Source: Spirochaetaceae bacterium (GTDB taxonomy: Bacteria > Spirochaetota > Spirochaetia > SZUA-6 > Bin103). From it: a DNA stretch of 64,000 nucleotides. A program made the translations under genes and the position numbers. Location of the stretch: the NCBI GenBank assembly GCA_028821475.1, contig JAPPGB010000071.1, forward strand, positions 1-64,000, given 5' to 3'. Of this stretch, positions 3,970-53,955 are shown piece by piece; position 1 is the first letter of the stretch; the number at the start of each line of letters is the position of its first letter. The notes beneath the pieces were generated by a model. It saw only the letters and a list, made by a program, of their open reading frames with translations. It made no database searches and was not told where the DNA came from.

Positions 3970-4049
3970 TGTCCGCACCGAGAGCGGGCACCAGGGGCTT
4001 GGGTGCACCGGCTCATGTGGCCGGTGAAGACACTTTAGGAGGTAGCACG

Positions 4050-5675: not shown

Positions 5676-5689
5676 TCATCGCAGTCAGT

Positions 5690-5727: not shown

Positions 5728-5808
5728 GCAGCCGAGCGAGTTGAAATGTGAGATGTCTCAACGCGTGGGACAGCAGGAGCCCGGGAGGCTCGACAAGGAG
5801 TCAGGAGA

Positions 5809-7017
5809 ATGAGTGAACAGGCGACCGCGCCCGCGGCGCGCACGGTCGAGTTTCCGCCGCTCGACGAGGTTCGACGGAACCTGCGGGTGAAGTGGTACCG
5901 CTCGCCGATCGACCCGTCGACGTTGCGCCGGCTGATGCGGCGCAGCGACCTGCAGGGGGCGCTGCAGGCGGTGGGCCATCTCGGCCTGTTCGCCGCTACC
6001 GGCATGCTCACGGCCTGGTGCTTCATCCAGGCGATGTGGCTGCCGTTCGCGCTGGCCCTTTGGTGCCACGGCACCTTCGGCACGTTCATGTACATCGCCG
6101 GTCACGATCTCGGCCACGGTACCGTGTTTCGCACGAAGTGGCTGAATCGTTTCTTCCAGAGCATCTTCGGCGTGCTGTCGTTCTGGAATCCGCACGAGCA
6201 CGACCTGAGCCACATCTACCATCATCGCTACACCCTCTATCCGGAGGGCGACCGCGAACTGCCCGGCCAATACTACGATACCGGCGCAGTGGTGCACCCC
6301 TGGCTGCTGAACATCACGCCGTGGTGGGCGGTTCAGGAGTTGACCTTCAGCTTCGCCAGCCTGCGCCACCTGACGCTTTCCACGCTGCGCCTGGCCACGC
6401 GCCGTTACCGGATGAAGTTCACCGGCATCTTCGCCAGCGAGTGGGCCGCCGCCCTGTTCGCGACCAGCCCGGTGATCGAACGCAAGGCGGTGCGTTTCGC
6501 ACGGCTCACCCTCGCCTTTCACCTGGCCGCGCTGCTGACCGGGGCGCTGCTGGGGGCGTGGTGGCTGCCGATCGTCCTGACCGGCTCGGTGTTCGTCGGG
6601 CGCTGGCTGTTCACGCTGATCGTGATTCCGCAGCACTTCGGACTGATGGACAGCGTCCCCGATTTCCGGATGACGACCCGCTCCATCAAGCTGAACCCGT
6701 TCACCTCGTTCCTGTACTGGCGCATGAACTGGCATGCCGAACACCACATGTACGCCGGCGTGCCGTGCTACCACCTCAAGGAGCTGGCCCGGGAGATCGC
6801 ACCCGACATGCCGCGGCTGCGCACCTTGTGGCAGGCGTGGGCGGAGATGATCGAAAGCGTCCGACGCCAGCGCCGCGACCCGAGCTACCAGTACCGGACG
6901 CCGCTGCCGGCCAGCGCCCACCCGGCGGTGCTGCGCGAGGACGAGGTCGTGCTGCCGGAGGGCGAGCGGCTTGCCGCCGAGGCCTCCATCGGCGACCTGG
7001 CACACCAGCGCCAATAG
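5809..7017 (+). CDS. Membrane fatty-acid desaturase family protein
   Basis: A 402-residue integral membrane di-iron enzyme. The three histidine boxes are present: HDLGH (99-103), HIYHH (135-139) and HAEHH (309-313), with hydrophobic stretches before and between them. The family inserts double bonds or hydroxyl groups into acyl chains or related lipids such as carotenoids; the exact substrate is not clear. ATG 5809 has a GGAG-type site (aaggagtcaggagaatg). It appears to be a single gene. A 57-bp piece encoding the third histidine box is duplicated almost exactly at 11322-11378. Confidence 0.85.
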   Translation: MSEQATAPAARTVEFPPLDEVRRNLRVKWYRSPIDPSTLRRLMRRSDLQGALQAVGHLGLFAATGMLTAWCFIQAMWLPFALALWCHGTFGTFMYIAGHDLGHGTVFRTKWLNRFFQSIFGVLSFWNPHEHDLSHIYHHRYTLYPEGDRELPGQYYDTGAVVHPWLLNITPWWAVQELTFSFASLRHLTLSTLRLATRRYRMKFTGIFASEWAAALFATSPVIERKAVRFARLTLAFHLAALLTGALLGAWWLPIVLTGSVFVGRWLFTLIVIPQHFGLMDSVPDFRMTTRSIKLNPFTSFLYWRMNWHAEHHMYAGVPCYHLKELAREIAPDMPRLRTLWQAWAEMIESVRRQRRDPSYQYRTPLPASAHPAVLREDEVVLPEGERLAAEASIGDLAHQRQ

Positions 7018-37991: not shown

Positions 37992-39055
37992 CTGCCCTCC
38001 TGACCCGGCGCGGCAAGCGCGCCGGCGCCCGGGTGCTGCGCGGCCTCGTCGTACAGGAGGCAGCGGGCCAGGTGGCCGGCGCCGGTGTCGAACAGGCGGG
38101 GTTCGCGCCGTTCGCACACCGCGGCGGCCTGCGGGCAGCGCGGATGGAAGGTGCACCCCGGCGGCAGCGCGCCGGCGTCGGGTACCGTGCCGCCGATCGC
38201 CTGCAGGCGATCGATTTCGCCCTCCATGCGCGGCATCGAGTCGAACAGCGCGCGCGTGTAGGGGTGGCGCGGTTCCCGGAACAGCGGCCCCACCGCCGCC
38301 TGCTCCACCACGCGCCCGGTGTACATCACCGTGACCCGGTCGACCAGTTCCGCCACCACGCCGAGGTCGTGAGTGATCAGCAGGACCGCCATGGCGCGCC
38401 GGCGCGCCAGATCGCGCAGCAGGTGCAGGATCTGTGCCTGAATGGTGACGTCAAGGGCGGTGGTCGGTTCGTCGGCGATCAGGAGCCGCGGGCCGCACGA
38501 CAGCGCCATCGCGATCATCACCCGCTGCCGCATGCCTCCGCTGAGCTGGTGCGGGTACTCGTGGGCGCGCTGCTCGGGCAGCGGCACGCCCACCTGGCGC
38601 AGCGCGTCGACTGCAAGCTCGGCGGCGGCGGCGCGCGACTGCGCCTGGTGCAGCTCCACGGCCTCGGCGATCTGGTCGCCGACCGGGAACACCGGGTTGA
38701 GCGAGGCCATCGGGTCCTGGAACACCATCGCGATGTCGTTGCCGCGGAGGCGCTGCATCTCGCGCTCGCTCTTGCGCAGCAGGTCCTCGCCGCGGAATCG
38801 GATCGCTCCGCGGTCGAAGCGCCCGGGCGGGACCGGCACCAGGCCGAGGATGGAGAGCGCGGTGACGCTCTTGCCGCATCCCGACTCACCCACCAGCCCC
38901 ACGATCTCGCCGTCGTCCACGTGCAGGTCGACCCCGTTGACCGCATGAATCAGTCCTTCCGGGGTGCGGAAGGTCACCGCCAGGTCCTCCACCTGCAGCA
39001 GCGGCGACGCGGCGGCGCGGCTGCTGCTGCCGGGTCTGCGGGCAGGGCGGGTCAT
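37988..39055 (-). CDS. Dpp-type ABC ATPase (DppD-like)
   Basis: A 355-residue ATPase. Walker A is GESGCGKSV, the signature is [15 protein letters not shown], Walker B is [12 protein letters not shown], and the C-terminal cysteine motif is [14 protein letters not shown]. It overlaps the upstream aminotransferase gene by 4 bp (ATGA) and the downstream DppF gene by 4 bp, so the four minus-strand genes form one operon. Confidence 0.93.
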
Positions 39056-40347
39056 CGGTCGAGCGTTTGCACGGCGTGCAGGGAGCGCTCCAGTGCGGCC
39101 AGGGTCTGGTCCACGAGGTAGGGCGTGTGGGCGCTGCTGATGAACCAATGGGTGTTGGGGTGCAGGAACACGCCGTGGTCGAGCGCGCTGCGGTAGAACA
39201 CCCGCTTGCGCTCCAGGTCGCACGCCGGGTCGCCGCTGTCGAACAGCAGGAACGGCTGCGGCGGGATGCCGAGCACGCGCGCCTGCACGCCGCTGTCGGC
39301 CACCAGTTGCGCGAGCCCGTCGCTGAAGCGCCGGCCCAGTTCCCAGATCCGCTCCAGGGCACCGGCCTGCAGTTGGCGCAGCGTCTCCAGCGCCGCCGCC
39401 ATCTCGAACGTGCTCACCAGGTAGGTGCTGGAGTAGAACACGTCGGTCTCCATCACCTCGGCCTTGCCCACCAGTGCCGAGATCGGGTAGCCGTTGGCCA
39501 GCGCCTTGCTAATCGCCGTGAGGTCCGGGGTCACCCCCAGGTAGTGCTGCGCGCCGCCGAGGTGGACCCGCGGCCAGGTGCGGATCTCGTCGAACACCAG
39601 CACCGCGCCGTGGCGGTCGGCCAGCGCCCGCACGCCGGGCAGGAACCCCTCCGGCGGCAGCTCGAACTCGAACGGCTGCAGGATGATGCACGCCACCTCC
39701 CCGCGGCGACGCTCCAGCGTCTGCTCCAGCGATGCCAGATCACCGTATACGAAGGTGTCGGTGAGTTCGGCGACCTGGTCCGGGACCCCGGCGGCGTCGA
39801 GGTAGGGGCCGGTGCGCTGGCCCAGCACGTCGCCGGCGCCCTTGCGGCCCAGGCACCAGTCGTGCCAGCCGTGGTAGCCCCAGCGCACCACCCGGTCGCG
39901 GCCGGTGTAGCCGCGCGCCAGGCGCACCGCCAGGGTGCAGGCGTCCGACCCGGTCTTGGTGAACAGCACCCGTTCGGCGCTCGGCAGCAGCTCGATCAGC
40001 CGCTCGGCAAGCCGGTTCTGGATGGTGAACGACAGGTTGGCGATGAACCCGCGCCGGATCTCCCGGATCGCGGCCTCGTTGACGCGCCGGTTGCGGTAGC
40101 CGAGCACAATCGGCCCGAAGGCGCACAGGTAGTCGATGTAGCGGTTGCCGTCGACGTCCCAGACGTGGCAGCCGTCCACCCGCTCGGTGTAGATGGGCCA
40201 GTCCGCCACGTCGCTGAACGAGGTGGGGCGGCGCGCCGCCGTGACGCCGCCGGGAATCAGCCCGCGGGCGCCGGCGAACTCTTCGCGGGACTTGGGGTAG
40301 CTGTCCCCGGAGTGCCCGCCGGGCCGGCCACCTGGATGCCCGGTCAT
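39052..40347 (-). CDS. Class III PLP aminotransferase (glutamate-1-semialdehyde-like)
   Basis: A 431-residue aminotransferase or aminomutase resembling glutamate-1-semialdehyde aminomutase: it has FTKTGSDACTLAVRLAR, VLVFDEIRT with the PLP-contacting aspartate, and the PLP lysine in AISKALANGYP. The context (importer ATPases, transaldolase-like gene) argues for catabolism of an imported amine or amino acid rather than haem synthesis. Both ends overlap neighbours by 4 bp. Confidence 0.85.
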   Translation of the reverse strand: MTGHPGGRPGGHSGDSYPKSREEFAGARGLIPGGVTAARRPTSFSDVADWPIYTERVDGCHVWDVDGNRYIDYLCAFGPIVLGYRNRRVNEAAIREIRRGFIANLSFTIQNRLAERLIELLPSAERVLFTKTGSDACTLAVRLARGYTGRDRVVRWGYHGWHDWCLGRKGAGDVLGQRTGPYLDAAGVPDQVAELTDTFVYGDLASLEQTLERRRGEVACIILQPFEFELPPEGFLPGVRALADRHGAVLVFDEIRTWPRVHLGGAQHYLGVTPDLTAISKALANGYPISALVGKAEVMETDVFYSSTYLVSTFEMAAALETLRQLQAGALERIWELGRRFSDGLAQLVADSGVQARVLGIPPQPFLLFDSGDPACDLERKRVFYRSALDHGVFLHPNTHWFISSAHTPYLVDQTLAALERSLHAVQTLDR

Positions 40348-41048
40348 TGGTCCGCCGGCCGGTCGATCCAGTCGTGGTCGCCGTACACGCCGCGCCACGC
40401 GTCGGTGAACGCCGCGGTGCGGAACGCGGTCTCGTGGTCGTGGAACAGGTCGCGGAACACCGGCAGCTTGACCGTGCACAGGTGCGCCCCGGCGAGCGCC
40501 GCCTCCACCACCTGGATCGGCTCCCGCGCGCCCACCAGCACCTGCGCCGCGTAGCCGTGCCGGTCGACCACCTGCCGGGCGGCGCGGGCTATGCTCGGGC
40601 GCTCGCTGCGGTCGACCGCGATCGGGTTCTTGCTGATGCCGTGCAGCCCGCCCTCGAACAGCGCCACGATGGCGGCCCCCGCCTCGGCCGCCAGGTACGC
40701 CTGCAGGGCGTTGTAGATGATGGTGGCGGCGGTCTTGATGCCCTCGTCGTGCAGCCGGCGCACCACCCCGGCCGCGGCCGCGCTGTCGAAGGCGATCTTG
40801 ACGTGGATGCGCGGTTCCAGCGACGCCAGCAGGCGCGCCTCCTCCAGCATCCGCTCCGGGTCGCGGCTCACCACCTGCACCAGCACCGGCCCGGCCACCC
40901 GCGCGCTCATCCGCTGCACCCGGTCCAGGTAGTCGGTGCGGCCCTCCTCCGCCATCACCAGCGGATTCATGGTCAGGCCGTGGATCAGGCCGGACGCCAG
41001 CACCTCGTCCAGCACCTCTTCATTGAACGTGTCGATGCACAGCTTCAT
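40344..41048 (-). CDS. Transaldolase/fructose-6-phosphate aldolase-like protein
   Basis: A 234-residue TIM-barrel protein of the small transaldolase (FSA/TalC) family. MKLCIDTFNEE at the start and the Schiff-base lysine in HVKIAFDS are visible, and TAATIIYNALQAYLA corresponds to a conserved strand-helix. It should cleave or form C-C bonds in a sugar-like intermediate. It is the first gene of the minus-strand operon and divergent from the binding-protein gene at 41187. Confidence 0.83.
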   Translation of the reverse strand: MKLCIDTFNEEVLDEVLASGLIHGLTMNPLVMAEEGRTDYLDRVQRMSARVAGPVLVQVVSRDPERMLEEARLLASLEPRIHVKIAFDSAAAAGVVRRLHDEGIKTAATIIYNALQAYLAAEAGAAIVALFEGGLHGISKNPIAVDRSERPSIARAARQVVDRHGYAAQVLVGAREPIQVVEAALAGAHLCTVKLPVFRDLFHDHETAFRTAAFTDAWRGVYGDHDWIDRPADQ

Positions 41049-41186
41049 CCGCTGCCTGCTCTCCTTGCCTTGACCGGCGCTCCGATTCGTGGCGTACTGT
41101 CGCCTGCCTGATTGCGGCGGGCTCGCGGTGCGGGCCGCGCTGCAACTCACGGCGCATCATACCTTCCACAAAGGGGGAGACGAAAC

Positions 41187-42731
41187 ATGAAGCGAATCAT
41201 CCTGCTGGCCGGCGCACTGCTGCTGGTGGCCGGGACCGGGCTGTTCGCCGGCGGCGGAGGCGAACAGATGGCGATCGCCCAGTCGGCGTTGCGGGTGGCG
41301 ATTGCCGGCGAACCGAAGTCGGTAGCCGCCTGGCACACCGGCAGTTGGAACGACCAGATCCCGGGGCGCAGCATCTACCAGGGCCTGGTGGCGCTCGACT
41401 ACGACTCCATGCAGCCGGTCGGACTGCTGGCCGAGTCGTGGCAGTGGAACGACGACAATACCGCGGTCACGTTCAACCTGCGGCGCGGGGTCAGGTTCCA
41501 CGACGGCTCCGACTTCGACGCGGCCGACGTCAAGCACTCGCTCGAGAACGCCGCCAATCCCGAGATCGGGCTCACCGTGCACACGCTGTTGCGCGATCTC
41601 GATCACGTGGAGATCGTCGACGACCACACCGTGGTGGTGCACCTGACGCAGCCCAACAACTCGTTCCTGGCGATCATCATGGACGAGGCGTGGATCGTGC
41701 CGGAGGGCATGCTGCCGGAGGAACTCAAGACCAACCCGATCGGCACCGGGCCGTTCATGTTCGAGGCCTGGGACCGCGGCCAGGAGATCCGGCTCACCAG
41801 GTTCGACGACTACTGGGAAGAGGGCCAGCCCTACCTGGACGGCGTGGTGATCAAGTTCATCCCGGACATCGACGTGCGCATCGCCCAGTTCCGGCAGGGA
41901 GACCTGGACATGATCCTCAACGTGCCGGCGGCGCGGGTGCCGGAGATGCAGGCGATTTCCAGCATTCCGATCCTGGAGAGCGACAAGATCCTCAACACCG
42001 GTATCTACTTCGTGCTGTTGAACAACCGCATCGCGCCGTTCGACAACGAGCTGGTGCGGCGCGCGTTCAGCTACGCAGTCAATCGCGACCAGTTCATCCG
42101 CGGCGTGGCCGGCGGTTACAGTCCCGCGCGCGCCACCCTGATCGCCGACGACAGCCCGCACTCGATCGCCGGCGTCGACAACGATTACTACCCGCAGAAC
42201 ATCGCCAAGGCGCGCGAGCTGCTGGCCGAGGCCGGCTACCCGGACGGCATCGAGTTCGAGCTGATGTGGCACCGCACCGGCCCGCAGTGGGAGACCGGCG
42301 CGCAGCTCATCCAGGCCACCGCCAAGGAGGCCGGCATCGACATCACGCTCAAGGGCGAGGAGGTGGCGACGCTGCTGACCCGGTTGCGCGACTCGCGCGA
42401 CTACCAGGCGGCGTTCTCGGCGACCGCGGTGAAGCCCACCTACTACCACTCGCTGTGGGACTCGATCGGGCGCCAGCACTCCCACTACGCCGGCATCCCG
42501 GAGCGTCATCCCGAGTGGTGGCAGCGGCTGCAGGACGCGACCGCCCTGGAGCCGGACGCGTTCCGCGAGGAGATCGCCAACCTGGTGCGCGAGCACGAGG
42601 CGGGGCAGTTCGTGCTGACCCTGGGGCAACTGGTGGTGTTCGACTCGCTGAGCAAGGACCTGGCGGGGTATCGTCCGCATCCGCAAGGGGCGGGCCGCTA
42701 CAACTTCGCACCGATCCGGTTTGGAAACTAG
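41187..42731 (+). CDS. Dpp-type extracellular solute-binding protein (family 5)
   Basis: A 514-residue periplasmic binding protein for the Dpp-type importer (DppBCDF genes nearby). The signal peptide MKRIILLAGALLLVAGTGLFAGGGG is followed by EQMAIAQ. Family 5 features include YQGLVALDYD, FNLRRGVRFHDGSDFDAADV and LAEAGYPDGIEFEL. A GGGGGAG site precedes ATG 41187. A strong hairpin follows the stop. The ligand may be a peptide, an opine or another amide compound. Confidence 0.9.
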   Translation: MKRIILLAGALLLVAGTGLFAGGGGEQMAIAQSALRVAIAGEPKSVAAWHTGSWNDQIPGRSIYQGLVALDYDSMQPVGLLAESWQWNDDNTAVTFNLRRGVRFHDGSDFDAADVKHSLENAANPEIGLTVHTLLRDLDHVEIVDDHTVVVHLTQPNNSFLAIIMDEAWIVPEGMLPEELKTNPIGTGPFMFEAWDRGQEIRLTRFDDYWEEGQPYLDGVVIKFIPDIDVRIAQFRQGDLDMILNVPAARVPEMQAISSIPILESDKILNTGIYFVLLNNRIAPFDNELVRRAFSYAVNRDQFIRGVAGGYSPARATLIADDSPHSIAGVDNDYYPQNIAKARELLAEAGYPDGIEFELMWHRTGPQWETGAQLIQATAKEAGIDITLKGEEVATLLTRLRDSRDYQAAFSATAVKPTYYHSLWDSIGRQHSHYAGIPERHPEWWQRLQDATALEPDAFREEIANLVREHEAGQFVLTLGQLVVFDSLSKDLAGYRPHPQGAGRYNFAPIRFGN

Positions 42732-42756
42732 CGAAACTCTGCCGCGAGAAGTCCAG

Positions 42757-42782
42757 GCTGGCGCCCTCCCCGGGGCGCCAGC
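42757..42782 (+). terminator. Hairpin after binding protein, overlapping next gene's leader
   Basis: GCTGGCGCC (42757-42765) and GGCGCCAGC (42774-42782) form a perfect 9-bp stem with an 8-nt loop, followed by TTTG. It ends 6 bp before the ATG of the monooxygenase at 42789, exactly where a ribosome site would be. It could act as a terminator and as a translational lock. Confidence 0.7.
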
Positions 42783-42788
42783 TTTGTA

Positions 42789-43904
42789 ATGCAGTTCGGG
42801 CACTTCTCGTATCACATCACGCGGGCGGGCCGGAGCGGCGACGCCCGCGCCATAGAGGAGGCGCTCGCCGAAGCGCGCCTGGCCGAGCAGTTGGGCTACG
42901 ACGCGGTGTGGTTCTCGGAGCACCACTTCACCGGCGAGACCGTGTACGCCGACCCGATCGTGTTCGCCACGGCGGTGGCGATGCAGACGCGGCGCGTGAA
43001 GCTGGGCTTCGCGGTCCTGGAGATGGCGCTGTACCACCCGGTGCGGGTGGCGGAGCAACTCGCGCTGCTGGACAACCTGAGCGGCGGACGGGTAATCGTG
43101 GGCATCGCGCGCGGTTCGGCGTTCAACGCCTACGAGTACCGCGGGTTCGGCACCTCGGTGCAGTTCGGGCGCGAGTGCCTGGACGAGGCGGAAGAGTTGC
43201 TCATCAAGTGCTGGATCGCCCGCGACGGGATGGAGTTTCACGGCAAGTACTGGGACGTGGTGCTGCCGGAGGTGCGCCCGCACCCGGTGCAGCAGCCGCA
43301 CCCGCCGGTGCTGCGCGCCGCGGTGGGGCCGCCGTCCGTGCGCCAGATGGCGGCGCAGCGGCGCCCGGTGCTGATGCGCAGCTTCTCGACCGACTCGGCG
43401 CGCGAGACGGTGCAACTGTACCGCGACGGGTTGTACGAGGCGGGCTGCGACGAGGCGGAGGTGCGCTCCCTGCTGGCACAGTGCTGGATCTGGCGCGACT
43501 GCTTCGTGGCGGACTCGGATGCCGGCGCACGCGCCGAGTTCCTGCCGCGGCTCACGGCGTGGCTGGAGTACGTCAACGGGATCCGCGCCCGGTGGAACCC
43601 GCCCGACCCGGACCAGGAGGTGCGCACGCCGCACATGCCGCTGCCGGCGGAGGCGTACGGCGCGCGCCCCGACCCGGCGGCGCCGGAGTTGTTCGTCGGC
43701 TCGCCGGAACGGGTGGCGGAGCAGCTCTCGCAGCTTCACGAGCTGGGCGTCGGGCGCGTGATGCTCACCCACTACGGCGCCCTGATGGAGCGCGAACAGC
43801 GCGAGCGGTCGATGCGCCTGCTGGCGGAGCAGGTGTTCCCGCTGTTCCAGGGCGCCGCGTCCGCCGCGCCGCTCCCACCCGCCGTGGCGGAGACCGCCGG
43901 CTGA
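42789..43904 (+). CDS. Luciferase-like flavin-dependent monooxygenase
   Basis: A 371-residue LLM-class oxidoreductase (bacterial luciferase fold) using reduced FMN or F420. It starts MQFGHFSYH. FSEHHFTGETVYADP and GRVIVGIARGSAFNAYEY are family signatures, with GSPERVAEQLSQL near the end. Such enzymes oxygenate or desulfonate organic substrates. There is no visible Shine-Dalgarno, because a hairpin occupies that place. It is followed by two amidohydrolase genes, so it is likely part of the same catabolic route. Confidence 0.88.
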   Translation: MQFGHFSYHITRAGRSGDARAIEEALAEARLAEQLGYDAVWFSEHHFTGETVYADPIVFATAVAMQTRRVKLGFAVLEMALYHPVRVAEQLALLDNLSGGRVIVGIARGSAFNAYEYRGFGTSVQFGRECLDEAEELLIKCWIARDGMEFHGKYWDVVLPEVRPHPVQQPHPPVLRAAVGPPSVRQMAAQRRPVLMRSFSTDSARETVQLYRDGLYEAGCDEAEVRSLLAQCWIWRDCFVADSDAGARAEFLPRLTAWLEYVNGIRARWNPPDPDQEVRTPHMPLPAEAYGARPDPAAPELFVGSPERVAEQLSQLHELGVGRVMLTHYGALMEREQRERSMRLLAEQVFPLFQGAASAAPLPPAVAETAG

Positions 43905-43906
43905 GC

Positions 43907-44695
43907 GTGGACGCTCTCGACCTGTTCGACTGCAACTGCGGGCTGGGGCCGTCGCGCCGGCATCGGCCCGGCCTGATCACGGACACCGGCGGGCTGCAGG
44001 CGGAACTCGACGTGCAGGGGATCCGGCGCGCGCTGGTCTACGCGATCTCGGCGGAGGAATACTTCCCGCGCCACGGCAACGGGTGGCTGCTGGAGCAGGT
44101 CGCCGGCAGCGACCGGCTGCTGCCGTGCTGGATCGTGATGCCGCACCACACCGGCGAGTTCCCGGCGCCGAAGGAGCTGATCGGCCTGATGCGCGCACAC
44201 GGCGTGCGCGCCGCGCGCATGAACCCGCCGTCGCACAACCGCTACAGCATCGCGCCGTGGTCGGCCGGGCCGCTGCTCAAGGCGCTCGAACGGCACCGCA
44301 TCCCGCTGTTTCTGAGCGGCACCGACCTGGGCCGCTACCTGGACGACCCGGGCACCGGCTTCACGCCCGACGTGCTGCACGAGCTGTGCCATACCTACCC
44401 GCGGCTGCCGATCGTGATCCTGCGGCTCAACTTCCAGTTGACCCGGGTGGCGGTGGCGCTGCTGCAGGCGTGTCCCAACCTGTACGCCGACCTCTCCTAC
44501 CACGACGTGTTCCTGGGCATCGAACTGCTGTGCCGGGAGGTGGGGGCGGACCGCCTGCTGTTCGGGACCGGGCTGCCGATCGGTGGGCGCGGCGCCGCGT
44601 TGGCCACCCTGCAGGCGGCAGAGATCGACGACGGCGCGCGCCAACGGATCGCCGGCGCCAACCTGCAGCGCCTGCTGGACGGAGTGCGGTGGTGA
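43907..44695 (+). CDS. Amidohydrolase-like protein lacking the HxH metal motif
   Basis: A 262-residue protein of the amidohydrolase-2 fold. Where relatives have HxH at the end of strand 1, this one reads LFDCNCGLG, and the late aspartate region reads LLFGTGLPIGG instead of a GSD/GTD motif, so the usual metal centre seems absent. The cysteines might bind metal differently, or the protein may be a non-catalytic partner of its neighbour at 44692. GTG 43907 follows the monooxygenase stop by 2 bp. Confidence 0.75.
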   Translation: MDALDLFDCNCGLGPSRRHRPGLITDTGGLQAELDVQGIRRALVYAISAEEYFPRHGNGWLLEQVAGSDRLLPCWIVMPHHTGEFPAPKELIGLMRAHGVRAARMNPPSHNRYSIAPWSAGPLLKALERHRIPLFLSGTDLGRYLDDPGTGFTPDVLHELCHTYPRLPIVILRLNFQLTRVAVALLQACPNLYADLSYHDVFLGIELLCREVGADRLLFGTGLPIGGRGAALATLQAAEIDDGARQRIAGANLQRLLDGVRW

Positions 44696-45594
44696 GCGGC
44701 GGCAACGGGTCGCGGCGTGGCGGGTCGCGGGGCGGCGGCCCGATGGCCGCCGGCGCGGGCGAGTCCAGCCGGGTGGCGGAGATTGCGCGCGCGGGTCCGC
44801 CCTACGACGGCCTGGTGATCTTCGACAACCACCTGCACTTCGGCCATGCGCCGGCCGTGTTCGAGGCCGCCGCCGACCCGGTCGAGCTGGCGAGGCAGAT
44901 GAGCCGGATCGGCATCCGGGTGGCGGTGGTGAGTTCGATCTGGGCCATCTTCAGCGGCGACATCCGGGCCGGCAACGACGAGGTACTGGCGGCGCTCGAT
45001 CGCTTCCCCGACCGCTACCTGGGCTACGTGGTGGTGCACCCCGCCTACCCCGAGCTTCTGGCCGGCGAGCTGGAGCGCTGCCTGCGGCATCCGCGCATGC
45101 GCGGCATCAAGCTGCATCCCACCGAGTACAGCCATCCGGTCAAGATCACCGACCCGCGCTACCGCCCGGCGTTCGAGTACGCCCGCGACCACGGCTACCC
45201 GATCCTGATCCACACCGGCCCGGCGGCGCAGCGCGCCTACTGCGGCGCCGAGGAAGTGGCCACGGTGGCGCGCGAGTTCCCGTCGGTGCCGGTGATCCTG
45301 GCACACACCATGGGCTTCGACCGCTGGGAAGGGGTGGAAGAGGCGGTGGCCGTGGCGGCGCGGCTCGACAACGCCTACGTCGACCTGTCCGGTTCCGCCG
45401 GGCGCCACTACGGGCTGGTGGAGTACGCGGTGCAGCGCGCCGGCAGCGAGAAGATCCTGTACGGCTCCGACGTGCCGCAGCTCACCTTTACCTTTCCGCT
45501 CGGCCCGGTGTTCTACGCCGACATCCCGGACCGCGACAAGGAGAACATCCTCGGCCTGAACACCGCCCGCATGTTCGATATTCCGCTCCCGTGA
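44692..45594 (+). CDS. Amidohydrolase-2 family metal hydrolase
   Basis: A 300-residue TIM-barrel hydrolase with FDNHLHFG (HxH), GIKLHPTEYSHP, LIHTGPA, ILAHTMGF and LYGSDVPQ, a complete amidohydrolase-2 metal set. The GTG start overlaps the stop of the preceding homologue (GTGA) and has GGAG upstream; ATG 44743 is an alternative. About 25 glycine- and arginine-rich residues precede the fold. It probably forms a pair with the HxH-lacking neighbour. Confidence 0.85.
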   Translation: MSGGNGSRRGGSRGGGPMAAGAGESSRVAEIARAGPPYDGLVIFDNHLHFGHAPAVFEAAADPVELARQMSRIGIRVAVVSSIWAIFSGDIRAGNDEVLAALDRFPDRYLGYVVVHPAYPELLAGELERCLRHPRMRGIKLHPTEYSHPVKITDPRYRPAFEYARDHGYPILIHTGPAAQRAYCGAEEVATVAREFPSVPVILAHTMGFDRWEGVEEAVAVAARLDNAYVDLSGSAGRHYGLVEYAVQRAGSEKILYGSDVPQLTFTFPLGPVFYADIPDRDKENILGLNTARMFDIPLP

Positions 45595-45617
45595 CGGGGC
45601 GGGGGAGGAGAAGCGCC

Positions 45618-46121
45618 ATGTTTTCGATCAACCACTACTGCCTCATCGTCACCGACCTGGAGCGCTCGCTCGCCTTCTACCGCGACGTGCTGGGCATGAG
45701 CCTGCGCTCGCGGGTCACGCGCACGGAAGACATCGCCACCGCCATCGCGCACCCCGGCATCACCATGCACAACGCCATCCTGTACCACGCGGATTCGCCG
45801 CACCCGGCGCTGGAGCTGATCCAGTACGAGCCGGCCGGCGCCAAGGTGGACCTGCAAATCGCCAATCCCGGCACCTCCCACATCGCCTTCGACGTGGCCG
45901 ACATCCACGCCGCCGTGGCCCACCTGCGCGCGCACGGCGTGCCGGTGGTGTCCGCCCCCGTGCACCTGGAACCCAACCCCGACACCGGCGCCCGCGGCGG
46001 CACCATCGCCTACTTCAGCGACCCCGACGGCATCTCCCTCGAACTCTACCAAGCCCCGGATCCACAGGCCGCACCTCCCGCAGGCCAGGAACGCCTCGGT
46101 GCACCCGGAGTTCCCGGATGA
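45618..46121 (+). CDS. VOC-superfamily (glyoxalase/extradiol-like) protein
   Basis: A 167-residue VOC-fold metalloenzyme: INHYCLIVTDLERSLAFYRDVLGM begins it, and metal ligands include the early H, H in TSHIAFDV, and the late E in GISLELYQ. GGAGGAG precedes ATG 45618 by a good distance. It ends the plus-strand catabolic operon. Possible roles are epimerase, lyase or ring-cleaving dioxygenase. Confidence 0.88.
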   Translation: MFSINHYCLIVTDLERSLAFYRDVLGMSLRSRVTRTEDIATAIAHPGITMHNAILYHADSPHPALELIQYEPAGAKVDLQIANPGTSHIAFDVADIHAAVAHLRAHGVPVVSAPVHLEPNPDTGARGGTIAYFSDPDGISLELYQAPDPQAAPPAGQERLGAPGVPG

Positions 46122-46274
46122 CGTACGATCAGATGGTCGAACGTGGCTCAGGAGCGTACTCTTTGGTATCCGCACGAAGCAGGATCGCCGTGTACGGCCG
46201 ACACATCCGGCTCGTCGTTCCTCCATCGCGCGGACCACTTCGGTACAGCAATAGAACCTGATAGGAGCGAAAGT

Positions 46275-46924
46275 ATGGAGAATAGCCCCGCAGCAACCGA
46301 AAGACGTCCCGTTTGGTTCGTGGGGGCCGCGTTTGGCGGTCATGACGACCAAACCGACCGGTTCCTGAGGGACGGTATCTGGGTGAACGGCCACACTGAC
46401 AAATTCATCGACGATGTTAAGTCGATAGCCGTCGGTGACAAGATCGTGATCAAGTCATCCTATACCAAAAACACGATCTGCCGTTCGACAACCGTGGACA
46501 CTCCGTGTCGACAATGAGGATCAAAGCCGTTGGCGAGGTGACTGAAAACGTAGGAGATGGACGTCACCTGAGAGTCGGCTGGAGGGAACTGGATCCGCCG
46601 CGCGAGTGGTACTTCTATACGAATCTGAAAACCGTATGGAAGGTCCAACAAGGGTCCGGTGCGCAGCCACAAGCAGCGGCTGCGCTCATCCGCTTTGCAC
46701 TCTCGGGCGAAGACCAAGACATCGAGAGCTTTCGGAATCTACCATTCTGGAAGAAGCGATTTGGAAGCGATGGTGCCCAGTTCAGATGGACGCCATTCTA
46801 CTCCGAAATGGCCGATAAACTCATACGGTATCGATCTGACCGTAGCTCTTTGATATCTGGAATCGCGGAAATCTCTGACAGATTGAGCAATAGATTTCCT
46901 CCGATTCATGACAAGTACAAGTAG
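46275..46924 (+). pseudogene. Frameshifted N-terminal remnant of McrB-like protein
   Basis: The first frame (46275-46517) encodes WFVGAAFGGHDDQTDRF...GDKIVIKSSYTK, and a second frame then continues HDLPFDNRGHSVSTMRIKAVGEV...REWYFYTNLKTVW...DIESFRNLPFWKKRFG to a stop at 46924. Together they match the sensor domain found at the N-terminus of some McrB-type restriction ATPases. The switch needs one extra A in the AAAAA run at 46467-46471. The AAA domain that should follow is missing. A good ribosome site (TAGGAGCG) is still present. Confidence 0.7.
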
Positions 46925-47763
46925 CATGCCGGTTCGAGGTTCTTACGGTCGACACGCCCCGCAACCGTTTCGTGCGCGGAGCCCTGCAGCGGTTGACGAG
47001 GGTGATACGGAGGCCCGCATTGGTGTCGCGATGCACCGCGGCGGATGCACGCCTGGAACGCGCTGGTGTGAGCGCCGATCTGGTACTCGACCATCCTCGA
47101 GGTCGCAGTGCCGTTGTCGCGGAGTTGCGCGGGCGCTTGGACCCCGAGGATCGAAGAATGTTGGCCGCCGCTGAACTGTCGTTCAGCCTCGCGCTGCCCA
47201 CCGAGTCGGCCGGGAGATTGTCCTTGGCGTCACCGGATCGGGATGAGGCCTGGGCCAGGCGGTTGTTCGAGGCGGCCGTCGGCGGGTTCTATGACGTAGT
47301 CTTGTCGGCGGAGGGCTGGATTACACGGACCGGGAGCCACCAGTGGTGGCCCGTGGAACACGACACGTATGGATTACGAGATCTCCTACCATCAATGGAG
47401 GTGGACATCATTCTCGACCGGCGCGACATCGAACAGCCGAGTCGGGAACGTCGAATTCTCATCGACACGAAATTCACTTCGATCCTGACTCCAAGTCGTT
47501 TCCGGCGGGAGACATTCAGAAGCGGTTACGTCTACCAGATCTATTCGTACCTGAGGTCTCAGGAGGAGGACGGAGACCCGCTGTCTCGCGGTGCGACGGG
47601 GATGTTGCTTCACCCCGCGGTGGAAGGAGACGACGTCTTCGAGTCAGGGGTGATCCAGGGACATGAGGTGCGCTTCGCGACGGTCAATCTCGCGGCCTCC
47701 AGCCGAACGATTCGCGAGAGGCTCCTTTCTGTCGTGAGCGAGGAAGGTGCGGGCTCCCACTAA
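46912..47763 (+). pseudogene. C-terminal remnant of McrC-like restriction nuclease
   Basis: An open frame from just after a TGA at 46909 with no proper start. It encodes CRFEVLTVDTPRNRFVRGALQ, then LFEAAVGGFYDVVL, LLPSMEVDIILD, ILIDTKFTSIL and YVYQIYSYL, which is the McrC nuclease domain with its PD-(D/E)XK residues. Relatives are roughly 100-150 residues longer at the N-terminus. It begins where the McrB remnant ends, so a single deletion probably removed the McrB ATPase and the McrC head. GTG 46972 could allow translation of the rest. Confidence 0.72.
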
Positions 47764-47870
47764 CCGGCTGGGTTTCGTGCAGCTTGGTGCTACATTCCCC
47801 AGACCGTGACCGGTGTGCCGTCGTATCGTGGCAGTCTTCGGCGGTTGGGTCACGACGTGTTGACCATCCA

Positions 47871-48072
47871 GCCACCGCACTGCCATGCGCGAGGCGTCCC
47901 ACCGCTGCCGGCGCCACCCCGGCCGCGCGTGAGCCGGCGCAGCCCGTCCAGCGCTTGGTGCTCCGGGGCCGCCAACGTGGACGGCACCTTGGCGGTGTGA
48001 GCCGCGCCCCGCCATCGTCGACCAGTGTCGGGTCGGTATAGGTGCCGCCGACATCGACATGTGCGCGGTAGA
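47871..48072 (-). pseudogene. 5' fragment of a second hyuA gene
   Basis: About 200 bp closely resembles 33902-34107, covering roughly the first 69 codons of hyuA. It reads VYRAHVDVGGTYTD at the start and later GVAPAAVGRLAHGSAVA. Small deletions throw the middle out of frame, the start ATG is changed, and the match stops abruptly. It is clearly a dead copy. Confidence 0.8.
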
Positions 48073-48089
48073 CGAGCTTGTCAGGAGAC

Positions 48090-48260
48090 GTCACCCCGAC
48101 AGCCCGCGCCGCACTTCGTCCGCATCTACCGCGAGCGCCGCAGTGATGGCCTCGGCATCCTGTCCCAGGCTACGCAGGCGGCGGATCGCCTGCGTGAGCA
48201 ACGCGCGCCGCTCCTGCTCCGCCTGTTGTTGAGCCTGCTCCGCCCGCTGCGCCCGGCAGG
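48090..48260 (-). pseudogene. C-terminal tail of an unidentified coiled-coil protein
   Basis: An open minus-strand frame ending in TGA at 48090 that has no start (a TAG precedes it). It encodes RAEQAQQQAEQERRALLTQA followed by LGQDAEAITAALAVDADEVRRGL. The glutamine/glutamate-rich helix and the closing helix pair resemble the C-terminus of Rpn/PD-(D/E)XK transposase-like nucleases. Identity is a guess. Confidence 0.4.
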
Positions 48261-48718
48261 ACTATCCCACGCTACGAAACCGCGGTCTGTCAGGCGCCGC
48301 CTCGTCGCCGCCTCATCGATTCTGGCGAGCTGCACCTGATCCGCGGTTTCTCATGCCACGATTCACGTGAGCCGGTACGGTCACTCCGTGACAGGGAAGA
48401 CGATGAAAACCGATGCCCGAGCATCGCCCACCAGCCGGCTTTTTCGGACCAGCCTACGGTCAGCGAACGGTTCGCCGTGGGCCAAGCGCCTGAAAAAAAG
48501 TCGAGAAAATCGCTGGCTGCGGGCCTCAGGGGGTTGACACGGTTTTGGGCGCGCGAATGGACCACGTCCCCGACCCCGCCTGTTCCGCTCCCCTTGGCGC
48601 CCTCAGCGCGCGCTCTCGGCCCGCCGCGTCCGGGTCTGGCCCGCAAAGCCCAAATCGGACGGGCGGCTCGTCCACGGGCCGGCACGGGGCCACCGAATAC
48701 CGGGTGTACCATGGCGGC

Positions 48719-50383
48719 ATGGCACCTGACACCTATACGCTGCCGCGCCCGCCGACGCCGTCAGCGCGGCCTGAACCGGCAGCCACCGACCCGGCCGCGA
48801 CCGCGGCCACCACCGCTCCGAGAACGCCCGGCACGAGCGAGACTGCGACGGTCGCCGTTGCCGACAGCGCAGCGCCGGCCCCGGAGGCACCCCGCGACCT
48901 GAATCAGCTCGGCAACCGCATCGCCGAGCTGTCGGCGCGCATCCAGGCCGCCACCTACGAGTTGCTGTGCGACCTGCGCGAGTTCGACCGCCACCACGGC
49001 TGGGAGGGCTTCCGTTCCTGCGCCCACTGGCTCAACTGGCGCACCGGCCTCGACCTCGGCGCCGCCCGCGAGAAGCTGCGCGTGGCCGCTGCGCTGGCCG
49101 ATCTCAACCACCTCTCCGCGGCCATGGCCTGCGGTCGGCTGTCCTACTCCATCGTACGCGCCCTGACTCGAGTGGCCACCGCCGACAACGAGGCACGGCT
49201 GATTGCCGTGGCCTGCTGTGCCACCGCGGCGCAGGTGGAGCGGCTGGTGCGGGGGTGGCGGCAGGCGGACCGGGAGGCGCAGCCGGACGCCGAGCAGGTG
49301 CGGCTGGAACGGCGCACGCTGAGCACGCGGGTGGACGAGGACGGCATGGTGGTGCTGCGGGCGCGGCTCACGCCTGAGGTAGGCGCGGTAGTGCTGCGGG
49401 CCGTGGAGGCGGCCCTGGAGCAGGTGCCGGCGGCGGAGGAGGAGGATGCCGCCGGCGGCGACGAGGCGAGCATCGCGCAGCGGCGCGCGGATGCGCTGGG
49501 GCTGGTGGCCGAGAGCGCGCTGGCGGGCGGCCTTGATCCGGGCAGCAGCGGCGACCGCTTCCAGGTGACGGTGCACGTGGAGGCTGACGGGCTTTGCTGC
49601 CGAGAGGCCGCCGCGGCCCCGCGGCACGTTTCCGCGGAAATTGCGCCGGGCAGCGAGGCAGCCTGCGCACCGGCGGCAGCGTCACTGGACGGGGTGGCGG
49701 AGCAAGTGTCCATCGAGCACGCGGAGGAACTACCGGCCACCGAGGCGACGCCCGACCGCGACCCGGCGGTCCCGATGCCTGGCCCCGACGCCGGGCAGGC
49801 GGTGATCGAACAAGCAGGGGGCATCCACGTCGGCAAGGAGGCAGCGCGCCGCGTCGCCTGCGATGCCGGCCTCGTGGAGCTGCGCCACGGCGCCGACGGC
49901 GAGGTGCTCGACGTGGGCCGCAGGACCCGCACCGTCCCGACCGCGCTGCGCCGTGCCCTGCAGAGCAGGGATCGCAACCAGTGCCAGTTCCCCGGCTGCG
50001 AGTCCCGCCACTGCGACGCCCATCACGTCATGCACTGGGCCGACGGCGGGGAGACGCAGCTCTTCAACTTGGTCAGTCTCTGCCGGCTCCACCACCGCGC
50101 CGTGCACGAACAGGGCTTTCGGGTCGTTGCCGGAGACACCGATGGGGAGTTTCGGTTCCTGCGCCCGGACGGCGAGCCGCTGCCGGCGGTGCCACCGGCG
50201 CCGCGCTGGGACGGTGTCGGGCCGCCACTGGCGCCGACCGTGGAGCGCCTGGCGGCGGCCGGCATCAGCATCGGTCCGCACACCGCTACTCCCGAGTGGT
50301 TCGGCGAATCGCTGAACGTGGCGGCGGCGCTCGACGTGCTGTGGGAGCCGCCCGTGGCGGCGGCGCGCGGCGGCGCTCCCTGA
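48719..50383 (+). CDS. DUF222/HNH endonuclease family protein (13E12 type)
   Basis: A 554-residue protein. After about 60 proline/alanine-rich residues comes the DUF222 helical domain (NRIAELSARIQAATYELLCDL, LARVATADNE-like). The C-terminal HNH nuclease motif is CQFPGCESRHCDAHHVMHWADGG...NLVSLCRLHHRAVHEQG. A variable acidic linker of about 110 residues separates the two. The family is abundant in actinobacteria and is considered mobile or selfish in character. The ATG at 48719 places the start just before the disordered region. Confidence 0.87.
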   Translation: MAPDTYTLPRPPTPSARPEPAATDPAATAATTAPRTPGTSETATVAVADSAAPAPEAPRDLNQLGNRIAELSARIQAATYELLCDLREFDRHHGWEGFRSCAHWLNWRTGLDLGAAREKLRVAAALADLNHLSAAMACGRLSYSIVRALTRVATADNEARLIAVACCATAAQVERLVRGWRQADREAQPDAEQVRLERRTLSTRVDEDGMVVLRARLTPEVGAVVLRAVEAALEQVPAAEEEDAAGGDEASIAQRRADALGLVAESALAGGLDPGSSGDRFQVTVHVEADGLCCREAAAAPRHVSAEIAPGSEAACAPAAASLDGVAEQVSIEHAEELPATEATPDRDPAVPMPGPDAGQAVIEQAGGIHVGKEAARRVACDAGLVELRHGADGEVLDVGRRTRTVPTALRRALQSRDRNQCQFPGCESRHCDAHHVMHWADGGETQLFNLVSLCRLHHRAVHEQGFRVVAGDTDGEFRFLRPDGEPLPAVPPAPRWDGVGPPLAPTVERLAAAGISIGPHTATPEWFGESLNVAAALDVLWEPPVAAARGGAP

Positions 50384-50546
50384 GGGACCCGCGAACTGGA
50401 GGTGCAGCGCGGCGAGGATGAGCAGCGCGCCCGCGATGGAGACTGCCTCCAGGGATTTTCAGTCCTCATCAGCATGGGATCGTCCTGTCGACCGGCTGCG
50501 CTCGGTTGACCGCGCGGGGCGGGTTCCCTAGGATTGCCGCCATTCC

Positions 50547-51500
50547 ATGGCGGACCTGCGCGCGGCACAGCAACTGACCCGGACGCGGCCATCCACGTGG
50601 CAGCGCGCCGTGCGCGTGCTGCGCAAGGACCGTTATCTCTACCTGATCTTCCTGCTGCCGTTCCTGTACTTCCTGGTGTTCCACTACCTGCCGATCTACG
50701 GCGTCATCATCGCGTTCAAGAACTACAAGGTGGCGTTCGGCATCTGGGGCTCCAAGTGGGTCGGCCTGCAGTACTTCATCGAGTTCCTGACCGATCCCTA
50801 CGCCTGGAAGCTGATCCGCAACACCATGCTGCTGTCGTTCTACAGCATCGTCTTCGGCTTTCCGATACCGATCATCCTGGCGCTGCTGCTCAACGAGCTG
50901 CAGATCTCCTGGTTCAAGCGCGTGGTGCAGACGGTCAGCTACCTGCCGCACTTCATCTCCGTGGTGGTGGTGGCCGGCATGGTCGTGAACTTCCTGTCCA
51001 GCGACGGCCTGGTGAACCGCATCATCGTGGCGCTCGGCGGCGAGTCGTTCCCGTGGCTGATGCAGCCGCGCTGGTTTCCGGGCATCTACGTCATCTCCGG
51101 CATCTGGCAGCACGCCGGCTGGAGTTCCATCATCTACCTGGCAGCCCTGTCGGCGATCGATCCGGAACTGTACGAGGCGGCCACCATCGACGGCGCCGGC
51201 CGCTTCCAGCAGATGCGCCACATCACTCTGCCCGGCATCGCCCCCACCATCACCATCCTGCTGATCCTGGATCTCGGGCGCATCATGTCGGTCGGCTGGG
51301 AGAAGATCCTGCTGCTGTACACCGGCGCCACCTACGAGACCGCCGACGTGCTGCAGACCTACATCTACCGCCGCGGCCTGGAGGGCGCCGACTTCAGCTA
51401 CGCCACCGCGGTGGGCGTGTTCCAGGGGCTGGTGGGCCTGGCGTTCGTGGTCGGCGCCAACTACCTGTCGCGCCGGCTGTCGGATACCAGCCTGTGGTAA
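50547..51500 (+). CDS. LplB-type sugar ABC transporter permease
   Basis: A 317-residue permease of the LplB type, close in length and layout to that at 2093-3043 (SGIWQHAGWSSIIYLAAL matches the same place in the other copy). The docking loop is LYEAATIDGAGRFQQM. It overlaps the YtcP-type partner by 7 bp. It belongs to a three-gene importer with the binding protein at 52438. Confidence 0.92.
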   Translation: MADLRAAQQLTRTRPSTWQRAVRVLRKDRYLYLIFLLPFLYFLVFHYLPIYGVIIAFKNYKVAFGIWGSKWVGLQYFIEFLTDPYAWKLIRNTMLLSFYSIVFGFPIPIILALLLNELQISWFKRVVQTVSYLPHFISVVVVAGMVVNFLSSDGLVNRIIVALGGESFPWLMQPRWFPGIYVISGIWQHAGWSSIIYLAALSAIDPELYEAATIDGAGRFQQMRHITLPGIAPTITILLILDLGRIMSVGWEKILLLYTGATYETADVLQTYIYRRGLEGADFSYATAVGVFQGLVGLAFVVGANYLSRRLSDTSLW

Positions 51501-52396
51501 CCACGCGCCTGCGCACCGCGTTCAGCGACCGCTCGCTCGGCTCGTACTCGTTCGACATCGTCAACGTGGTGCTGCTGCTCGGGGTGGTGTTCGTGACCCT
51601 CTACCCGATGTACTACATCCTCATCGTGTCGTTCTCCGACGGCAAGGAGGTGCTGCTCGGGCGGGTGCGCTTCTGGCCGCGCGGCCTCAACCTGCAGTCG
51701 TACCAGATGGTGCTGCGCGACGACACGGTGATCCGCTCGCTGTTCAACTCGATCCTGTACACCTCGGTCGGCACCGCCATCAACCTGGTGCTGTCCACCC
51801 TGTGCGCCTACCCGCTGGCGCGGCGCGACTTCTCGGGGCGCAAGCTGCTGACCCTGTACGTGGCGATCACGATGTTCTTCCAGGGCGGGCTGATCCCACT
51901 CTACCTGGTGGTGCTGCAGCTCGGCCTGCTCGACACCATGTGGGCGATCGTGCTGGTGCCGGCGATCAACCAGTTCTACATGTTCATCATGCGCACCTAC
52001 TTCCAGGGCCAGCCGACGGCGCTGCACGAGGCGGCGATCATCGACGGTGCCAACGACATCCAGATCCTGGCGCGCATCGTGGTGCCGCTCGCCAAGCCGA
52101 TCATGGCCACCATGCTGCTGTTCTACGCCGTCCAACACTGGAACAGCTTCTTCCACGCGCTGATATTCCTCACCGAGAAGCGCCTCTACCCGCTGCAACT
52201 GATCCTGCGCAGCGTGGTGGTCGAGGCCACCTTCGAGCAGATGAACGACATCGGCGCCGCCACCGACTTCATGGTGCTGGAGAAGACCATCCGGTTCTCG
52301 GTGATCATGGTATCGACACTGCCGATTCTGTTGGTGTATCCCTTCCTGCAGAAATATTTCGTGAAGGGCGTCATGATCGGCGCCCTGAAGGGATAA
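51494..52396 (+). CDS. YtcP-type sugar ABC transporter permease
   Basis: A 300-residue MalG-like permease. The GTG start at 51494 lies within the end of the preceding gene. The docking loop is LHEAAIIDGANDIQI, and the C-terminus FVKGVMIGALKG is the YtcP-type ending. It is a paralogue of the gene at 3037-3969. No ATPase gene is nearby. Confidence 0.9.
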   Translation: MVTTRLRTAFSDRSLGSYSFDIVNVVLLLGVVFVTLYPMYYILIVSFSDGKEVLLGRVRFWPRGLNLQSYQMVLRDDTVIRSLFNSILYTSVGTAINLVLSTLCAYPLARRDFSGRKLLTLYVAITMFFQGGLIPLYLVVLQLGLLDTMWAIVLVPAINQFYMFIMRTYFQGQPTALHEAAIIDGANDIQILARIVVPLAKPIMATMLLFYAVQHWNSFFHALIFLTEKRLYPLQLILRSVVVEATFEQMNDIGAATDFMVLEKTIRFSVIMVSTLPILLVYPFLQKYFVKGVMIGALKG

Positions 52397-52437
52397 CGAC
52401 CCCAATCGCGCGCGACGAGCGCGCCAAAGGAGATTTC

Positions 52438-53955
52438 ATGAGGTTTTCGTTCGTTGCGGCGGGGCTGGCCCTGCTGCTCGTTTCCGGCATGGTGTGGGCC
52501 GCCGGCGAGGAAGAGGGCGCCGCGTCCGAGCGCGTCACCATCACCTTCATGCGGCCCGAGCACCCGTCGTCGCCGATCCACACCGACGCACCGGTGTACG
52601 AGGCGATCCGCGAGGCGCTCAACATCGACCTGCAGATCGAGGCGATCCCCAGCGGCGACTACAACGCCAAGGTGCAGTTGCTGCTCGGCACCGCCCAGTT
52701 GCCCGACATCGCGCGGCTGCGGCAGCGGCAGGTGAACGACTTCGCCGACTCCGGCGTGTTCCTGCCGCTCAACGAGCCGCTCAAGAACCAGGCGCCGGAC
52801 CTTTGGACGTACATCGACGCCATACCCGACGCCAAGAAGACGTTCATCGACGGCACCATGTACTACGTGCCGCAGATGGACTCCTTCCAGAAGCTGCTCG
52901 CCCCGATCCCGATGATCCGGCACGACCTGCTCGACGACACGGGACAGGAGATGCCCGACACCTTCGACGAGCTGTACGAGACGCTGGCCAACTTCAAGCG
53001 CGAATTCCCGGACTCGCAGCCGTGGACCGTGCGCGGCGGCACCCGCAACCTGCTCAACCGTGCCGCGTTCCCGATGGGCATGGGCTGGGGCATTCACTGG
53101 CAGCCCGGCGAGCAGCGCTGGGTGTACGGCACCGTCAAGCCCGAATTCAAGGCGATCCTGGAGTACTTTCGCAACGCGTACGTCGACGGCGTGCTGGACC
53201 CCGACTTCGCCATCAACTCTTCCAGCCAGTGGCACGAGAAGCTGGGCTCCGGCAAGTCGCTGTTCTACTACGACAACATGACCTTCGGCCTGAACTACAC
53301 GCTCAGCCTGCGCCAAGTGAAGCCGGACGCGCTGTTCTGGCCGGTCCCGGTGATGGAGAACTCGTTCGGATCGCGGCAGAACTTCTCCTATCCGCGCCAC
53401 TGGCTGTCCAGCGGCTTCACGGTGGCCGCCAAGAGCAACCACCACGACCGCATCATGGAGCTGTTCAACTGGATGGCCCACGGCGACGGCTTGCTGATCA
53501 CCAATTGGGGCATCGAAGGCGAGCACTGGCACCGCGTCAACGGCGAGATCGAGGCCTTGCCGGAGGTGCTGGACACCTACCGCGGCGCCTCCGACCCGCA
53601 GCGCGCGATGCGTTCCTCGATCGGTACCGGCCTGCTGCAGTTCTGCCTGATCGTCGACCAGAAGCCGATCTACTACTATGATCCGCCGGAGGTCTCCGAC
53701 TGGTACGCGCAGGTGCAGGCCGACCCCAACATGCACCTGCCGGTGCTGCCGCCGCCCTTCAACGAGGAAGAGCGCGAGCGGCTCAAGCGCCTGATCACCG
53801 ACGTCGACAACATCCTCAACCCGGCGCTCGACGGCTTCATCGTCGGCACCGTGTCCCTGGACGAATTCGACAACGTGATGCAGCAGGCCATCGCCGCCGG
53901 CGCCGAGGAGATCGAACAGATCTACAACGCCGCCGAGGAGCGCCTGCGCTCGTAA
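52438..53955 (+). CDS. Extracellular sugar-binding protein of ABC importer
   Basis: A 505-residue LplA-like binding protein. The signal peptide MRFSFVAAGLALLLVSGMVWAAG is followed by an acidic EEEGAASE linker. ATG 52438 has AAAGGAG. It partners with the two LplB/YtcP permeases just upstream, the same order as 2093-5675, so this is a duplicated or independently acquired system of the same type. A hairpin lies 91 bp beyond the stop. Confidence 0.9.
   Translation: MRFSFVAAGLALLLVSGMVWAAGEEEGAASERVTITFMRPEHPSSPIHTDAPVYEAIREALNIDLQIEAIPSGDYNAKVQLLLGTAQLPDIARLRQRQVNDFADSGVFLPLNEPLKNQAPDLWTYIDAIPDAKKTFIDGTMYYVPQMDSFQKLLAPIPMIRHDLLDDTGQEMPDTFDELYETLANFKREFPDSQPWTVRGGTRNLLNRAAFPMGMGWGIHWQPGEQRWVYGTVKPEFKAILEYFRNAYVDGVLDPDFAINSSSQWHEKLGSGKSLFYYDNMTFGLNYTLSLRQVKPDALFWPVPVMENSFGSRQNFSYPRHWLSSGFTVAAKSNHHDRIMELFNWMAHGDGLLITNWGIEGEHWHRVNGEIEALPEVLDTYRGASDPQRAMRSSIGTGLLQFCLIVDQKPIYYYDPPEVSDWYAQVQADPNMHLPVLPPPFNEEERERLKRLITDVDNILNPALDGFIVGTVSLDEFDNVMQQAIAAGAEEIEQIYNAAEERLRS

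Follow-up and report, generated by a model that had tools for sequence, protein, structure and literature searches.

McrBC has been described in E. coli as a system in which a finger of McrC enters the ring of McrB (excerpts of PMC7680126 and PMC3874153). According to the same excerpt of PMC7680126, E. coli McrC shows no stable DNA binding on its own, and its residues Asp257 and Lys259 are catalytic. Among EVE proteins in defence systems, EVE-McrB is given as the commonest architecture (PMC7641849, in part). A broad literature search on the loss of McrBC by deletion or on McrBC pseudogenes had nothing directly on the subject among the titles listed, which is no proof of absence.

Here we describe a locus that we interpret, with high confidence, as an EVE-McrB/McrC operon for type IV restriction that was inactivated recently, that is, as a fresh pseudogene and not as a minimal sensor-nuclease system. 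It lies in a stretch of 64,000 nucleotides that was analysed as a whole (hereafter the window) and that is carried by contig C71 of a genome of 5.73 Mb (183 contigs, 95.7% complete). The comparisons below refer mostly to L007, a locus of a family-level relative that holds the whole operon, and to G002, a genome of the same genus. The initial annotation of the window had read the locus as the wreck of an McrBC operon, and this reading is supported by one deletion relative to G002 and L007 and by one single-base frameshift. The features of the locus are as follows.

46263–46277, forward strand: AGGAG ribosome-binding site and ATG start codon of the disrupted mcrB; the same TAGGAG...AGTATGGA(G/C)AAT context is found in mcrB of G002.
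46275–46466, forward strand: N-terminal part of the predicted EVE-type sensor domain of McrB in the original frame; 54% identity to L007 sensor residues 1–53, profile E 6e-20.
46467–46471, forward strand: A5 run where the reading frame is lost (-1); 32 aligned relatives have no shift, and the two halves are in different frames.
46472–46924, forward strand: remainder of the predicted EVE-type sensor and beginning of the linker to the motor, in the shifted frame and ending with TAG; 65% identity to L007 sensor residues 57–150 and 59% over residues 1–40 of the next domain, E 1.6e-54.
46922–46932, no strand: deletion junction; about 1.8–1.9 kb are gone, comprising the remaining McrB with its AAA+ motor and the beginning of McrC, as far as residue 94 or so of the L007 N-terminal part.
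46933–47763, forward strand: C-terminal part of McrC with the PD-(D/E)xK nuclease; match to PRK09736, D/D/K kept relative to E. coli McrC.
47764–47823, reverse strand: short stretch resembling the terminal part of an ATPase gene that lies convergently behind mcrC in G002; blastn similarity between the two genomes reaches 47823, and the remainder of the gene is absent from the window.

The N-terminal specificity domain of McrB is present in the window, but it is split over two frames (46275–46924). The original frame comprises 64 codons from the ATG at 46275 to 46466 (MENSPAATERRPVWFVGA...KSSYT), and its unshifted translation would terminate at 46515–46517. The second half lies one frame back (KHDLPFDNRGHSVS...IHDKYK) and stops at the TAG at 46922–46924; it is 61% identical to McrB of another genome, G003 (E 1e-51). 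Both halves match the profile built from 32 relatives, with the E-values listed above. For the underlying alignment we used 32 of 37 related loci, leaving out two loci at contig edges, one partial locus and two broken ones. When searched alone, neither half had a match in Pfam or PADLOC, and NCBIfam gave nothing informative. A frameshift in the A-run had been proposed before, and we find the break at that same position, the A5 run.

The sensor had been named an McrB-type N-terminal sensor, which is right and can be sharpened to the EVE type by the fold matches of L007. The fold was predicted for the L007 sensor with 31 aligned relatives. The predicted structure has a mean pLDDT of 83.8 and a pTM of 0.70. 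With VIA-align, the model matched 2p5d (Z 10.1, rmsd 3.3 over 113 residues), 1wmm (Z 9.5, rmsd 4.2 over 112 residues), the EVE-HNH enzyme VcaM4I (6yex; Z 9.2, rmsd 2.7, 105 residues) and the EVE namesake 2eve (Z 7.8, rmsd 3.4 over 108 residues). A Z below 8 is little proof on its own, and the EVE assignment is based on the EVE and YTH domains that fill the match list. Foldseek returned one match for the model at E <= 0.001 (2p5d), with a TM-score of 0.33 by query length. The sensor is thus predicted, from its L007 relative, to have an EVE/YTH fold.

The third open stretch (46939–47763) is in a different frame from the second sensor half. It matches the NCBIfam model PRK09736 (McrC) over positions 100–351 of 353 (E 2e-62) and is 81% identical to McrC of G002 (E 8e-139). 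Its score against Pfam PF10117 is below the cut-off (18.1 vs 23.9 bits), and no PADLOC model matched it. The PRK09736 and G002 matches confirm that the sensor is followed by the C-terminal nuclease part of McrC. The two had been called fused, but the pieces are adjacent and in different frames, which rules out a sensor-nuclease fusion. The catalytic residues D/D/K of the PD-(D/E)xK nuclease are kept in the alignment to E. coli McrC chains; a further catalytic residue of E. coli McrC is presumably Asp244, which is printed as Asp224 in the passage of PMC7680126. The first in-frame candidate start of the McrC piece is a GTG at 46972, where no ribosome-binding site is visible.

What is missing lies between the sensor and the McrC piece. 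Homology to G002 and L007 restarts at 46921, in mcrC, and the operon at the same site in G002 places the deletion at 46922. As read from the alignments and sequences, the deletion measures about 1.9 kb against G002 and about 1.8 kb against L007. By tblastn with pieces of the L007 operon, we recovered from the window sensor residues 1–53 and 57–150, the middle domain up to its residue 40 and the McrC C-terminal part (66% identity). Neither the AAA+ GTPase domain of McrB nor the N-terminal, ring-entering part of McrC (94 aa) had a match at 45001–50000, as the initial annotation had stated of the McrB ATPase and the McrC N-terminus. The only AAA_5 match on the contig is found at 102654. Since the window lacks the AAA+ domain of McrB, the locus is a remnant and not a member of the working McrBC systems. 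Within the operon, one deletion and one frameshift account for everything that is missing, as had been claimed. The longest repeat common to both deletion edges has 6 bases in G002 and 8 bases in L007. A repeat-mediated deletion or assembly join was rejected because the edges share no repeat longer than that.

To place the remnant among its relatives, we scanned the contigs of GTDB species with the second sensor half, which yielded 117 candidate stretches and, from these, 37 confirmed loci. The 37 loci were tested by tblastn with five pieces of the L007 operon (sensor, middle domain, AAA+, McrC N-terminal part and McrC C-terminal part). The sensor, the AAA+ domain and both McrC parts were matched in 32 loci, where the matches are tblastn matches and no proof of unbroken frames. 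Two of the other five end at contig edges (L024 and L026), one is remote (L043) and two are broken (L037 and L040). The arrangement of the window, with the sensor and the C-terminal part of McrC and no AAA+ domain, was found in 0 of the 37 loci. The comparison with intact McrBC operons of relatives, to which the initial annotation had pointed, is thus in agreement with its main reading: L007 is complete and 32 of the 37 loci match all four parts.

Other damaged loci were seen among the relatives. L037 (about 5780–6420) is a damaged McrBC locus of which only fragments are left. In L040 (1453–2691), a transposase-like gene, which we take to be ISAzo13-like, is inserted in mcrB, and no AAA+ or McrC match was found in the DNA examined. 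In L107 (G426:C14, about 3480–5930), the sensor is internally broken, the frame changes before the AAA+ domain and an in-frame stop lies near the end of McrB.

At the level of genomes, the McrC piece was matched in 5 of 98 relatives' genomes, the own genome included (G000, G002, G003, G031 and G045). The sensor half was matched in 3 of the 26 genomes of the order, namely the own genome, G003 and, with the linker end only, G002. The sensor profile matched 16 of 392 genomes, again including the own one; these matches are weak and many concern only the linker end of the profile, and they were examined further for seven loci. G001, of the same genus (81% complete, 510 contigs), is uninformative, with no McrC match and at most 29 bases of the flank. 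A protein search of the window's own genome, which is 95.7% complete as noted above, gave a single McrC match and thus no second copy of the operon; none was seen in a DNA search either, among the 40 of 265 candidates that were scored. A PF10117 search of the genome found nothing, and it has little power, as 1 of 14 control genomes was positive and the remnant itself was missed.

When comparing the locus to G002, we find that the two genomes are collinear upstream, along window positions 38249–46057 (7.8 kb) with 89–91% nucleotide identity. The McrBC of G002 (L044, G002:C73, 9191–12102, minus strand) thus occupies the same site. Its McrB has the matching ribosome-binding site and ATG, followed by about five codons, and then continues in frame past the sensor (GHGFGWTKFYSEV..., where the window has QFRWTPFYSEM...). 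The protein has 575 aa from the ATG and no sensor; the AAA+ domain is kept and a full-length McrC comes next. The same site is damaged in complementary ways: the window retains the sensor without the motor, whereas in G002 the motor and McrC remain and the sensor is gone. By analogy, the sensor-less McrB of G002 resembles McrB-S of E. coli, a form without the N-terminus that can sequester McrC in complexes incapable of DNA binding (PMC3874153, excerpt).

The two genomes are unlike downstream. Next to mcrC, G002 carries a convergent ATPase gene, and about 60 bp of this gene remain in the window. Furthermore, window positions 50500–53900 correspond to contig C51 of G002 and the upstream side to contig C73; given these differing 3' sides, the operon sits at a synteny break (window 46058–50500). 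The convergent ATPase gene of L044 encodes about 550 aa, and DNA matches to it, its own locus counted, occur at 31 places in G000 and at 19 in G002. The gene may be a member of a mobile or spreading family. A patchwork of fragments with copies elsewhere in the genome was observed at 47871–48580 (among the 40 of 265 candidates scored). One of its pieces is 87% identical to window 33902–34085, which lies in a presumably hydantoinase-like gene, the piece at 48089–48253 has four or more further copies of nearly full length, and 48368–48452 holds a repeat of some 85 bp with at least 29 copies elsewhere.

We compared the divergence of the operon to that of its flanks. For the C-terminal part of McrC (273 codons), the window and G002 differ by a dN of 0.120 and a dS of 0.892 (dN/dS 0.134). 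For five upstream flank genes, among them presumably a substrate-binding protein and a glyoxalase, dN is 0.012–0.040 and dS 0.213–0.340, with ratios of 0.044–0.138. The operon is thus about three times more diverged from G002 than the flanks at a similar dN/dS, which suggests that selection held for most of the divergence. The two operon copies may be different alleles, and dating against the flanks is uncertain. In a codon model of three sequences (266 codons), omega was 0.19 on the window branch (0.245 with all branches free) and 0.06–0.12 on the others. Giving the window branch a rate of its own did not improve the fit significantly over a single rate (LRT 1.9). Fixing the omega of this branch at 1 was worse, just short of rejection at the 5% level (LRT 3.81). 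Thus, these tests prove neither recent decay nor continued constraint.

The three pieces contain no additional stop. In simulations of neutral drift (2000 runs each), 9.6% of the runs stayed stop-free at 0.05 changes per site, 0.95% at 0.10 and 0.05% at 0.15; half of the flank dS is about 0.11–0.17. If the operon mutates like its flanks, the inactivation is probably younger than the split from G002. With no further stop and an McrC dN/dS of 0.13 against G002, the break looks recent. The open McrC frame and the surviving catalytic residues are to be expected of a young pseudogene and of a still-used gene alike.

By analogy with McrBC of E. coli and Thermococcus, an intact operon such as L007 would work as follows. 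The EVE-fold domain of McrB would bind a modified base in incoming DNA, and the AAA+ domain would form a translocating ring driven by GTP. The N-terminal finger of McrC would enter this ring and speed up GTP hydrolysis, and the PD-(D/E)xK domain would cut the DNA. In the window, as the comparison shows, one deletion took away the motor together with the initial part of McrC, and the loss of a single base threw the sensor out of frame. As far as the sequence tells, neither piece should work. The sensor piece is expected to be dead because its protein would stop early, at 46515–46517, and the nuclease piece because it is left without the ring, its own N-terminal part and a good translation start.

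The complementary losses at one site could mean that selection disarmed the same McrBC in two sister species, which we consider unlikely. If true, the cause may be a newly acquired DNA modification that makes the intact nuclease attack the own chromosome; McrBC of E. coli can kill its host upon genome methylation (excerpt of PMC2614495). In that case, the sensor-less McrBC of G002 would represent a natural form that is inhibitory, re-targeted or safe for its own host.

It appears very improbable to us that metagenome assembly introduced the deletion or dropped the base, and that the true genome has a full operon. The genome is split into 183 contigs, repeats adjoin the locus and some of their copies lie at contig ends elsewhere, but the deletion edges share no repeat longer than the 8 bases mentioned above. 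Furthermore, the gaps in the syntenic 7.8 kb are all multiples of three (27, 27, 9, 9 and 15), except for five single-base gaps at 41085–41168, which are intergenic by our reading of the gene starts. This pattern speaks against an assembly that is prone to indels.

A working minimal pair, in which a translational -1 frameshift at the A-run yields the sensor and the short nuclease joins it in a motor-less, modification-dependent enzyme, is in our estimate hardly credible. A -1 slip in the C-AAA-AAC context would yield a sensor of the usual length, by comparison of the sequence to the alignment, and the McrC piece is still open with its catalytic residues kept. Yet the 32 aligned sensors need no shift, and the RNA downstream of the A-run is unexceptional (z 0.66; an equally good or better fold for 144 of 200 shuffled sequences). 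A programmed frameshift was rejected on these two grounds. The minimal system itself was rejected for its absence from all 37 related loci, for the differing frames and for the missing nuclease start, as the GTG at 46972 is the first candidate; E. coli McrC without stable DNA binding of its own, as reported in the cited excerpt, also argues against it. The initial annotation had considered such a pair in case the A-run is an assembly error. This is not supported, since the deletion would persist, none of the 37 related loci has the arrangement and the McrC piece has no plausible start. The novelty it had seen in such a pair is weakened as well, because motor-less, modification-dependent enzymes of sensor and nuclease are known, e.g. 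the EVE-HNH enzyme VcaM4I (PMC7897488, in part). A remnant kept as a regulator, with the sensor fragment masking modified DNA or the nuclease fragment poisoning a rival complex, has a precedent in E. coli McrB-S, a natural truncated McrB that modulates restriction (PMC3874153, excerpt), but with the sensor itself frameshifted and no second McrC partner in the genome by protein search we give it next to no weight.

We thus return to the recently inactivated operon as our interpretation. The locus would be an example of how one deletion and one frameshift abolish a defence operon, seen at a stage before further decay. The complementary losses in the sister genomes pose the question whether the loss of McrBC is neutral or results from a clash with DNA modification by the host itself. 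With the sensor lost in frame, G002 would also offer a way to test an McrBC that has none.

Lastly, we compare the locus to known systems. With the EVE-McrB/McrC operon (Bell et al. 2020, PMC7641849, in part; here L007), it shares the sensor, the nuclease part of McrC and the gene order, whereas the AAA+ motor and the N-terminal part of McrC are absent from the window and the sensor is frameshifted. McrBC of E. coli K-12 has the McrC nuclease with the aligned D/D/K residues, and the motor of L007 McrB matches E. coli McrB structures (E 2e-73); unlike the window, the E. coli system is complete and has a sensor of its own, DUF3578 (excerpts of PMC7641849 and PMC3874153). VcaM4I (PDB 6yex) is similar in its EVE-fold sensor, as judged from the L007 model, and in being a motor-less enzyme of sensor plus nuclease (PMC7897488, in part). 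It differs in that HNH and EVE are fused in one intact protein, whereas the nuclease of the window is of the McrC-type PD-(D/E)xK kind, lies in another frame and is broken. The McrBC at the syntenic site of G002 has the same upstream neighbours, a matching ribosome-binding site and start and the 81% identical McrC, whereas its sensor is gone in frame, its motor and full-length McrC are kept and its 3' flank is another one. The remnant is thus newly described and otherwise ordinary, of a known kind, and is set slightly apart from routine cases by the complementary loss in G002.
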